The translations under genes and the position numbers were made by a program. Below, piece by piece: positions 19,424 to 22,046 of a DNA stretch of 64,000 nt (positions within the stretch are counted from its first letter, which is position 1; every line of letters begins with the position of its first letter). The DNA is taken from the NCBI RefSeq assembly GCF_024207115.1, contig NZ_CP100128.1, forward strand, positions 2,852,001 through 2,916,000, given 5' to 3'. Below the pieces are notes generated by a model that saw nothing but the letters and a program-made list of their open reading frames with translations, was not told the origin of the DNA and made no database searches. Source of the stretch: Chromobacterium sp. IIBBL 290-4 (lineage in GTDB: Bacteria; Pseudomonadota; Gammaproteobacteria; Burkholderiales; Chromobacteriaceae).

Positions 19424-20644
19424 TCAGTCGCAGGACGGCTGGCGTGTCGCATCGTCGCGCGGGCTAACGGCCGGAGAAAGCCGCGAGCGCCATAGCACGG
19501 CGGCGCTTAGCGATAAGCCGCTGCCGCTGCAAAGCAGCAAAGCGGTTTGACTGCCAATTTCATCGGCCAGCAAGCCTGCTGCTGCGGCGCTCAAGGCAGC
19601 CACCCAAACTTGCCGCCGATAGCTGCAAGCGCTGGCGGCGGCAATCTGCGCCGCGTCAAACCGCCGCAGCAGGCCATGCCAGCCCAGGCAGAACACCACA
19701 TTGCTCAGCACATGGGCCAGGAAAACCAGGATCAGCGCCGCACTCAGCCATGGCAGGACCGCTGCCATTTGATAGCAGCCGACGAAACCGGCCAGGCACA
19801 GCAGAATCAGGCGCAGCGGCTGGTTTTGCAGCTGCCGCTCGCGGATCAGCAGCGGGCCGCATAGTTGGCCAAGGCTGCGGGCGAATAATAGCGCCAGCAC
19901 GGTTTGCTGCGGCGAGGATGCATGAGGCGTCAGCGTGGGCAGCAAGGCCATGGCCGGCGCGCCGACCGCCGTCAGCGCAGGCAACAGCAGCAGACTGCCG
20001 CGCTGCGCGCTATCTAGCTGCGGCGGCAGCGCCTGAACGGGTGCTTGCGCTCCGGTTTCGCTGCGCAGGGCGGGCAAGCGGCAGAGCAGGGCGATGGCCA
20101 GCGCGTAGCTGCCGGCATTCAGCAGCAACAGCAGGCTGTCGTCGATGCGCCCCTCCAGCCAGACGCCAATGCCTATGCCGAGCAACACATGGCAGGCGAA
20201 GACCAGCGTATCGATAAAGGCCGCGGCGGCCAGCTCGTTTTCTGCCAATTTTGCTTTGCTGTAATGGCTGATGGCGGGCAAGGCCAGTCCTGCGGCCAAG
20301 GAGGAGACGGATTCCGCCAACTGCAAGACGGGAATGGACTGCCAGTGCAGGCCAAGGGCCGGCAGGATCAGGCCTATCAAGCCTATTGCCTTGGCCAGCA
20401 TCAGCGCATGGCGGCAATCGGCGCGGCGCAGCAGTTTTTCCCCCAGTTTGCTGCCCGCTAAGCCGGGGGCGGAGGACAAGATAAAGGCCAGCGCGAACGA
20501 TGAGGGCGAGGCCTGCAGTCGGCTGAGCGCCGCGAAAACGACGATGAAGGTGAGGCCGCTGCCGATGGAGCTGAGCGCCAGCGCGCCGCAGAACAGGCGC
20601 AGCCAAGCATGGCGGCGCAAGGCCTGCCGGAAAATCAGGAACAT
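19424..20644 (-). CDS. MFS-type transporter, possible peptide exporter
   Basis: A 406-residue integral membrane protein with about 12 hydrophobic segments, organised like a major facilitator with a central break near residue 190-215. The N-terminal half resembles MFS exporters of the EntS/macrolide-efflux type (GSGLTFIVVFAAL), though the classic motif A is poorly kept. ATG 20644 has a strong ribosome site (GGAAGGA six bases upstream); the upstream TTG in frame is not needed. It lies on the same strand as the leader-peptide gene (21009-21203) but 364 bases downstream, so operon membership is uncertain. A role in exporting the peptide is inference only. Confidence 0.72.
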   Translation of the reverse strand: MFLIFRQALRRHAWLRLFCGALALSSIGSGLTFIVVFAALSRLQASPSSFALAFILSSAPGLAGSKLGEKLLRRADCRHALMLAKAIGLIGLILPALGLHWQSIPVLQLAESVSSLAAGLALPAISHYSKAKLAENELAAAAFIDTLVFACHVLLGIGIGVWLEGRIDDSLLLLLNAGSYALAIALLCRLPALRSETGAQAPVQALPPQLDSAQRGSLLLLPALTAVGAPAMALLPTLTPHASSPQQTVLALLFARSLGQLCGPLLIRERQLQNQPLRLILLCLAGFVGCYQMAAVLPWLSAALILVFLAHVLSNVVFCLGWHGLLRRFDAAQIAAASACSYRRQVWVAALSAAAAGLLADEIGSQTALLLCSGSGLSLSAAVLWRSRLSPAVSPRDDATRQPSCD

Positions 20645-21008
20645 GATGTGTCCTTCCAAGAGGTTTCGGAATTCAAAAATGGTCGAAACGCGTCTGGCCG
20701 GACATCACATGGGTGGGGGTCTCAATCTTAAAAAGCGCTTAGGCCGGGCATGGCTGATGCCTGGCGTTCAATTGCGGCGGTGATCAAGGGGGCGTTTCCG
20801 CTTTGCCTATCGGGCACGCCATGCCGCCTGTACGGCTTGGCTGGCTGTCGAGGCGGTACGATGGCATTCACTAGCCGGCAGGCGCAACGGCGCTGCGGAA
20901 CATGCGATCTATATTATTTTTCCGCGGCAAACTTGTAAATATATGGATGTCATTTTGCGGCGCGAAAGCCGGCGCGCCTCAAGCATGCCGGCTTGCTGCG
21001 CGTTTAGC
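20645..21008. other. Intergenic region downstream of leader-peptide gene
   Basis: No gene is supported here. A weak hairpin follows the peptide gene (AAGCCGGC 20966-20973 / GCCGGCTT 20987-20994, three T on the minus strand). An AT-rich patch at about 20900-20945 could hold a promoter for the MFS gene. A plus-strand open frame at 20750-20938 has no ribosome site and no recognisable content. Confidence 0.5.
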
Positions 21009-21203
21009 TTACTGCTGGACTGGCGCGAAGCCGGTGGTGCGCGGCGGCGGCGGGGCGAAACCGGTGGTCGGGCCATAGGTGGTTTTGCCGCCGGAGACGC
21101 CTTGCACTTCGTCGTCGCTCAAGCGCGCCATGCGAGCCAGCGCCAAGCTTTGCTCCAATTGCGCGTCGAGTTGATCGGCTGCGATGGTTTGACACTTCTT
21201 CAT
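21009..21203 (-). CDS. Candidate RiPP precursor with double-glycine leader
   Basis: A 64-residue peptide with two clearly different halves. Residues 1-39 are an acidic amphipathic leader ending LSDDEVQGVSGG, the form of double-glycine bacteriocin and RiPP leaders recognised by C39 peptidases. Residues 40-64 are a core rich in Thr, Gly, Phe and Pro with a duplicated TTGFAP unit around PPPPR, preceded by a related TTYGP. The core has no Cys, so lanthionine chemistry is excluded. A good ribosome site (AGGAAAG, then CAGC) precedes ATG 21203. The Cys-rich protein gene lies 56 bases upstream on the same strand and an MFS transporter lies downstream. No C39 peptidase is in the window. The assignment is inference from leader form and context. 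Confidence 0.62.
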   Translation of the reverse strand: MKKCQTIAADQLDAQLEQSLALARMARLSDDEVQGVSGGKTTYGPTTGFAPPPPRTTGFAPVQQ

Positions 21204-21259
21204 GCTGCTTTCCTTTCATTGTCAGAGGGGTGAAAAATCCGGAATGCCGCGTCCGCCGT

Positions 21260-21703
21260 CTAGTTGGCGGCGGGGGTGGGGGGGATGCGGGCTTGGGCGA
21301 TGACCTCATCGGGATTCATGTCCATCGACACCACCTGCGGGCAGCGCTCACAGGCGTTGCGGCCATGTTGGTCCCACCAGACGCATCGCGGGCGAATGGC
21401 GCAATAGGCCAATTGTTCGACCACAGGCGGCGCGGTCTCGACGATCCGGTTAGCCAGCGTGCATTGCGAGCTGCCTTTGTCGTGATGGAGGCAGTCTTGC
21501 TGGGCGCAGAGGCCTGCGGTGCGGAAGATCTCTTCTGGCGCGATCTCGCCCAAGCGGCTGCGGTCGATGCTTTCGACCGGCACAATCTGTTTCAGATACA
21601 TCACCCGTCGTTGTTCGGCGCTGCCGCCCACCATGCCGAACACCATGGTGCCGTTGCTGCCGAAGGCCGAGCTGGGGCAGAGCTTGTCTTTGTCCTGATT
21701 CAT
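21260..21703 (-). CDS. Cys-rich protein upstream of the leader-peptide gene, function unknown
   Basis: A 147-residue soluble protein with eight cysteines: C9, C66, C71, C81, C101, C107, C118 and C121. The spacing C66-x4-C71-x9-C81 and C101-x5-C107-x10-C118-x2-C121, with His73 and His74, suggests one or two metal or Fe-S sites. The pattern FRTAGLC, then IRPRCVWW, then ACERCPQVV resembles, from memory, a family of short Cys-rich proteins in cyanobacteria and proteobacteria sometimes labelled nitrogen-fixation protein; this was not verified. It probably forms an operon with the leader peptide 56 bases downstream and may modify or carry it. No catalytic motif is recognised. Confidence 0.7.
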   Translation of the reverse strand: MNQDKDKLCPSSAFGSNGTMVFGMVGGSAEQRRVMYLKQIVPVESIDRSRLGEIAPEEIFRTAGLCAQQDCLHHDKGSSQCTLANRIVETAPPVVEQLAYCAIRPRCVWWDQHGRNACERCPQVVSMDMNPDEVIAQARIPPTPAAN

Positions 21704-22046
21704 GGGCTCATTCCTGCCTGCGAGATAATTCAGCTGCGCGGCGCGCGTTCTGAGGTCGATGCCGTGAGCGCTTGCAGCCGTTTGTCATATGGTTCGCGAT
21801 TCATGCCTGGATAGGCTGGGATTTGTTGCTACAACTAAATAGCTATCAAAATAAAGCAATAAAATTTCAATTAATTAAAATATCAAGCAATATGTATGAT
21901 GTGTCGCTGCTGTTGCGAATAATGACAAATGGAAATAATAGAGTCAAATATATTGATAGTTTGGGAAGGAATAAGGCGGGACGTGTTGCGCGGGGGAGAC
22001 GGCGGCAGACGCCAGCGTTCAGCTAGCGCCTGCGGATTGGGAGGAC
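21704..22046. other. AT-rich upstream region of the peptide operon
   Basis: This 343-base stretch between xseA and the Cys-rich gene has no supported gene. Bases 21835-21965 are strikingly AT-rich compared with the surrounding sequence, of the kind often seen upstream of acquired operons and bound by H-NS-like proteins (inference). Confidence 0.5.
21858..21886 (-). promoter_or_regulatory. Putative promoter for the Cys-rich protein/leader peptide operon
   Basis: On the minus strand: -35 TTGATA (21886-21881), a 17-base AT-only-like spacer, and -10 TTTATT (21863-21858). It would give a leader of about 150 bases before ATG 21703. The region is so AT-rich that chance matches are likely. Confidence 0.35.

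Follow-up and report, generated by a model that had tools for sequence, protein, structure and literature searches.

A small eight-cysteine protein encoded beside double-glycine leader peptides in Chromobacterium: a candidate two-gene RiPP-like system

The closest described systems are RiPP precursors of the NHLP/Nif11 type with C39 exporters (TIGR03793, TIGR03796), class II double-glycine bacteriocins and microcins, including those with CTB-family leaders (NF038167), and graspetides with ATP-grasp enzymes of the MvdC/MvdD type. Double-glycine leaders and C39 exporters also belong to class II peptides that stay unmodified. We assessed a pair of small genes in a 64,000-nucleotide stretch (the window) of the genome of Chromobacterium sp. 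IIBBL 290-4 (5.1 Mb, one contig), which an initial annotation had proposed as an undescribed RiPP-like locus. The peptide encoded there has a leader that ends in a GG-like site, as in NHLP/Nif11-type precursors, and the likeness extends to relatives of the pair, with a TIGR03793 precursor beside the Cys gene in Nostoc and genes annotated as NHLP exporters in Spirosoma. In contrast to those systems, the window peptide matched no NCBIfam model, and hence not the TIGR03793 (NHLP) leader model, and it is paired with an unclassified eight-Cys protein, not with a known maturase. Leader type and size are like those of class II bacteriocins and microcins, whereas the window locus has a constant eight-Cys partner and a short Pro/Gly/aromatic core. 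Graspetide-type clusters are present in the same genome, one of them with a peptide carrying the window's leader type, but the window core contains neither Asp nor Glu for crosslinking, and inspection by eye of the genes called near the pair revealed no ATP-grasp gene; the locus was not classed with the graspetides.

The Cys gene comes first and the peptide gene second, in the same direction and with 56 nt between them (Table 1), which confirms the earlier description of an eight-Cys protein directly upstream on the same strand. The peptide likewise proved to be as described, with a double-glycine leader that ends in LSDDEVQGVSGG and has a single Cys (C4), followed by the remaining 25 residues (KTTYGPTTGFAPPPPRTTGFAPVQQ), in which there is no Cys and TTGFAP occurs twice. 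This duplication had been noted in the initial annotation, and it is not unique, since four orthologous loci (L027–L030) have pairs of [TSAV]TGFVP. Both frames were called as genes, the peptide at a low score of 12 and the Cys gene at 23, by a simple codon model made for this analysis and trained on these same loci.

Table 1 Features of the window locus and of related clusters in the same genome
Feature	Position	Strand	Basis
Eight-Cys partner protein, 147 aa, ATG start	21260-21703	-	alignments A1, A2
Precursor-like peptide, 64 aa	21009-21203	-	ORF, ATG start; homologues beside Cys gene in six other genomes of the genus
Leader, residues 1-39, ending VSGG, double-glycine type	21087-21203	-	15-peptide family alignment
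Putative core, residues 40-64, Cys-free	21012-21086	-	sequence
First TTGFAP unit, residues 46-51	21051-21068	-	sequence, motif count
Second TTGFAP unit, residues 56-61	21021-21038	-	sequence, motif count
AT-rich intergenic region upstream of pair, up to xseA; probable promoter region	21704-22046	-	GC profile
MFS-like ORF	19424 to 20659 (TTG) or 20644 (ATG)		ORF list
Graspetide-type cluster, own genome ~1.437-1.444 Mb	L077 460-2631 and 3722-7157		
Second graspetide-type cluster, own genome ~0.52 Mb	L078 3005-8020		

An alignment of 15 family peptides (A5) supported the leader–core appearance that had been noted for the single peptide, with a conserved leader and a variable end. M1, K2, Q15, S19, A23, E32 and G38 are invariant in the leader and R27, L28 and G39 nearly so, and the cores vary apart from xG[FYM]xP or TGK elements. 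The family shows the features of double-glycine leaders (GG or GA end, E/L/V pattern), and the window peptide those of a RiPP precursor, namely a leader and a core, presumably separated by cleavage, that are retained under selection. Two peptides of the genus matched NF038167 under the cut-off (17.3 and 16 bits vs. 32).

Separate searches for the two proteins, which had been suggested as a check of the pairing, found the Cys protein in 7 of 19 genomes of the genus, the peptide family in the same seven and neither in the other 12, based on family profiles of which that for the peptide was built from these very loci. The chance of such an overlap is 1 in 50,388 if genomes are independent, with kinship uncorrected. 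A search with a single peptide sequence returned the same seven genomes and one weak match (G021, E 0.056), which has an inner TGA, was missed by the family profile and was dropped. The 42 other genomes of the host family gave no Cys-protein match (7 of 61 overall, all within the genus). Three Cys genes are present in the window's own genome, accompanied by one, two and one peptides, and a family peptide lies on the same strand at each of the nine Cys genes of the genus, with the nearest 32–72 nt away. As in the window, the pair lies between xseA and ispH in L027–L030, where a second peptide with the core ENPPR[LM]TGKIV is found upstream of the Cys gene; this peptide is missing from the window, and no remnant of it was seen by eye in the three minus-strand frames. 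Empty sites were found in six of the 12 pair-less genomes (L102–L107), with xseA beside ispH and at most a lipoprotein-like gene between, and in the other six (L108–L113) xseA was absent from the 1.5 kb examined.

Selection was assessed with the Nei-Gojobori method, with paired values given as dN then dS. For the downstream peptide, the dN/dS ratio was 0.16–0.41 in ten pairs from L027–L030 and the window (0.05/0.27 in the closest pair and 0.12–0.38 / 0.64–1.80 in the others), and values were 0.07–0.26 / 0.52–1.54 for the upstream peptide in six pairs and 0.02–0.27 / 0.10–1.08 for the Cys gene in six pairs (L028, L029, L030 and the window). Between L031 and L032, they were 0.146/0.805 for the peptide and 0.178/0.392 for the Cys gene. 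Both frames are kept as proteins under purifying selection, and the protein-level conservation of the peptide frame in close relatives, on which the original proposal had been made to depend, was thereby borne out.

The pair is flanked by xseA on one side and by the MFS-like gene and a small lipoprotein-like gene, then ispH, on the other, with these names assigned by eye and by conservation. GC content drops to 0.36 at positions 21800–21999 compared to ~0.6 around them, as the initial annotation had observed when it took the AT-rich stretch for a mark of acquisition. The dip stands but its interpretation is not supported, since the 300 nt upstream of the first gene have a GC content of 0.37–0.48 in 9/9 genus loci, compared with 0.59–0.675 for the loci themselves rather than for other intergenic regions, such that the stretch belongs to the region that precedes the operon. 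Gain or loss is better indicated by the patchy distribution (7 of 19 genomes) and the empty sites than by AT-richness. Rfam gave no structured RNA match in the AT-rich region at E 0.1. In a BLAST comparison limited to L027–L030 and the sampled stretches of the 12 pair-less genomes, the MFS gene, which had been counted as part of the locus, had no match, and it therefore reads as a chance neighbour. Another MFS-like gene was seen by eye in L026, where it lies on the opposite strand at ~3 kb from the Cys copy, with two housekeeping-like genes in between. No known RiPP enzyme was recognised by eye among the genes called at ~13–30 kb of the window.

The window protein has exactly eight cysteines (residues 9, 66, 71, 81, 101, 107, 118 and 121), spaced as CP, C-x4-C, C, C-x5-C and C-x2-C. 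In the 22 aligned sequences of the family, C9, P10, G23, R61, C66, C71, C81, C101, R104, C107, W109, G114, C118 and C121 are invariant. None of these 22 members matched NCBIfam, and Pfam returned one chance-level match (Defensin_like, E 0.048), which places the family in no known RiPP maturase family covered by the two collections. The family profile found nothing in the PDB at E 5, and AlphaFold applied to the window protein with two relatives gave a useless model (mean pLDDT 38.8). Among the literature matches listed, no publication describing the family was recognised, with subscription literature mostly outside the search.

The Cys family is sparse, with relatives in Pseudomonadota, Cyanobacteriota, Bacteroidota and Actinomycetota. 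Two relatives, one in Chromobacterium piscinae and one in C. vaccinii, share 67% identity with the window's Cys protein. A first scan of genome contigs found no relative, a second found two Chromobacterium loci, and viral contigs had none. Across the order, 6 of 300 genomes matched at E 0.01, and the convincing matches were the own genome and G332, a member of another family in which a profile search found two tandem Cys copies; the matches in G218, G281, G289 and G339 (E 0.001–0.005, 18–20 bits) were taken as chance. The family was present in 1 of 369 genomes of the class, namely the window's own, and in 7 of 398 across the phylum (the own genome and six others). Eight of 198 genomes in one family of another class had it, seven of them new, and that class as a whole gave three matches in 385 genomes, none new. 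We take this class to be the Alphaproteobacteria because the alphaproteobacterial relative in Agrobacterium vitis has the same type of partner. A plasmid tblastn search added A. vitis (three records of equal score, one examined), Nostoc, Spirosoma, Polymorphobacter and three Streptomyces records with four loci. In Streptomyces NBC_00876 (L071), the Cys gene appears degenerate, as it lacks one or more of the eight Cys, and neither alignment A2 nor the tree includes it. The Streptomyces plasmids L060, L070 and L071 share an annotated order of condensation-domain gene, TetR, DUF2871, response regulator, HTH gene, tiny ORF and Cys gene.

We examined the neighbours of the Cys gene in 32 loci (9 genus, 2 G332, 13 other class, 8 plasmid). 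By eye, 26 of the 32 had on the same strand a small neighbour that either carries a recognisable leader or belongs to one of two recurrent partner families, including the broken locus L069, which has an apparent frameshift in both genes. Leaders are of the family type in the genus, end in GG in L043 and Spirosoma and in GA in L052, and are of the NHLP type in Nostoc. In L043, from another family of the order, double-glycine-type peptides are found upstream of both tandem Cys copies, at 314 and 483 nt, the first of which passes TIGR01847 (18.6 bits, cut-off 15.7). The Nostoc TIGR03793 precursor (110 bits, cut-off 50.9) lies upstream of the Cys gene, 455 nt from its homologous part and 167 nt from its annotated start, on a plasmid (L056 550-8345) where the Cys gene is found among annotated TOMM genes, Nif11 precursors and a nif11-class radical SAM maturase. 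The Spirosoma Cys gene is preceded at 40 nt by the gene for a GG peptide, which itself comes after two NHLP export ABC genes and one for a DUF7005 protein. From ~750 nt downstream, the same strand carries two glycosyltransferase genes and one for an SDR oxidoreductase, such that the Cys protein is not the sole candidate enzyme there. The row of ABC, DUF7005, peptide, Cys, glycosyltransferase and SDR genes on this plasmid (L058 1-9626) forms a compact system.

In the other loci, partners of type A carry a short motif near their end (TAGFFP in L050, TMGYFP in L051 and L063, IVGFFP in L057), and that of L052 has TMGMYP. Type B partners (L053, L055, L064–L069) share RFV[VI]DLG-like and FPxxW-G-I-like sequence and account for 8 of the 13 other-class loci. 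For six A and B partners (L050, L051, L053, L055, L057, L063), the spacing to the Cys gene ranges from an overlap of 7 nt (−7) to a gap of 9 nt (+9). By eye, a BMP-type binding-protein-like ORF lies upstream of the type B partner and Cys gene in L064–L067 and L069, and aldo/keto-reductase- or FAD-oxidoreductase-like ORFs follow in some of these. The pattern T.G[FYM].P was found in 7 of 9 genus loci, with DTGFLP in L025 and PAGYLP in L032. Within the last 40 residues, it occurred in 10 of 324 genes called in 17 loci, all of them partners, and anywhere in two further genes; L025 and L077 overlap, such that some genes are counted twice, and the pattern was chosen after the partners were seen, so the count describes specificity and is no blind test.

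Partner type follows the tree of the Cys protein. When ten partner labels were mapped onto a tree of 31 Cys proteins, they required 9 changes, the minimum possible, compared to a mean of 19.3 for shuffled labels (0 of 200 shuffles as low as 9), with labels assigned by the analyst, near-copies contributing to the low count and L069 entered as a fragment. Ten of 28 inner branches are weak, type A is supported at 74/92, and L054 and L061 interrupt type B.

We favour, at just short of even likelihood, the reading that the pair is a two-gene peptide system of undescribed RiPP-like type in which the Cys protein is most likely the maturase. The peptide would be made as a leader plus a short core, and the Cys protein, as we infer it, would contact the peptide directly and most likely modify residues in or beside the TxG[FYM]xP units. 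Eight invariant Cys with the spacing given above suggest a bound metal, for which two four-Cys sites holding zinc or Fe-S are the simplest guess. The protein is probably a metal-binding maturase and a candidate for a new kind of peptide-maturing enzyme. Several observations were counted against this explanation: the absence of a C39 exporter from the window; the further candidate enzymes in Spirosoma; the peptides of the own genome that share the leader but lie away from a Cys gene; the small ORFs of L054, L061 and the four Streptomyces loci, in which no leader or motif was recognised; the first conserved Cys of L060, which lies before the frame's only usual start codon; the radical SAM and TOMM genes close by in Nostoc; and the type B partners, which are without a leader–core look.

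The main rival, somewhat improbable but quite conceivable, is that the Cys protein is a dedicated non-enzymatic partner, such as a metal-stabilised chaperone, leader-recognition or immunity protein, with the peptide held until export and unmodified like a class II microcin. Its small size (147 aa) and the lack of matches to known maturase families would agree with this role, as would a double-glycine leader in a genome with C39 genes, which also suits class II peptides. However, the invariant R61, R104 and W109 together with the eight Cys, and the recurrence of the motif in partners with unrelated leaders, would fit a catalytic or substrate site better, and sequence variation that tracks the core would be anticipated for an immunity protein. 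The constant, substrate-like neighbour with its shared Gly-centred motif is the reason that we prefer a maturase over an escort.

Type B partners without a leader–core look, several of them near transporter and oxidoreductase-like genes, raise the prospect that the Cys family has a wider job. The family could serve small proteins in general, for instance as a factor for redox reactions or metal delivery, in which case the neighbours would be small folded subunits, not precursors, and RiPP-like settings would be one of several uses. We consider this unlikely: type B partners run ~75–81 aa from a conserved M[APT]RF start without a GG leader, and a BMP-type ORF lies upstream in 5 of 8 type B loci, but double-glycine or NHLP leaders are present in the nine genus loci, L043, L052 (GA), Spirosoma and Nostoc. 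Chance neighbours or a functionless ORF, as might be supposed for a short peptide first observed in a single genome, are highly improbable given co-occurrence, adjacency, purifying selection and motif recurrence.

A maturase role may extend beyond the genus. Rather tentatively, the eight-Cys proteins may be small peptide maturases of a new class, dependent on metal or Fe-S and present in four or more phyla, for which a Gly-aromatic/aliphatic site (often TxG[FYM]xP) is the recognition target whatever the leader. They would then define a new RiPP class with two genes as its smallest form. If the Cys protein does modify its partner, it would be a maturase outside all Pfam and NCBIfam models, and the pair a minimal two-gene system that is easily tested in E. 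coli. Genome mining based on known families would then miss it. Were it only an escort, the link of this conserved Cys family to leader peptides across several phyla would still offer a handle for finding precursors that are invisible to leader models.

A search for C39 peptidases elsewhere in the genome, as had been suggested, found five matches, none of which lies in the window as a same-locus cognate transporter. C39 peptidases cut at GG and are typically encoded outside ATP-grasp loci, according to one published account (PMC8939145). With C39 exporters present in the genome, cleavage and export in trans are plausible: the leader would be removed after GG, and a C39-type ABC exporter encoded at another site would carry the core out of the cell. 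The best match (G000:1441536) is an ABC gene adjoining an HlyD-like gene, and an MvdD-like ATP-grasp gene (379.9 bits, cut-off 475) lies in divergent orientation to both; the exporter and adaptor of this cluster also score under curated cut-offs. Two precursor-like ORFs with TT..VGEE units belong to the same cluster, as does a peptide that combines the window's leader type with the core LTGKVVLPPPLTGKIVVP. The second graspetide-type cluster has an MvdD-like ATP-grasp gene, two precursor-like ORFs (one with repeated TLAIGEES), a C39 ABC exporter and an adaptor-like ORF. Two peptides with a window-type leader are encoded away from a Cys gene in this genome (G000:1438906 and a weak partial match at 3917514), which indicates that the leader does not imply a Cys partner. 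None of the genome's three Cys genes lies near the second position, nor was one seen in the 700 bases read, where two tiny ORFs were observed by eye (L094 ~1297-1651, own genome ~3.9175 Mb), one of which has a window-like leader that ends in VSAAG and a different core.
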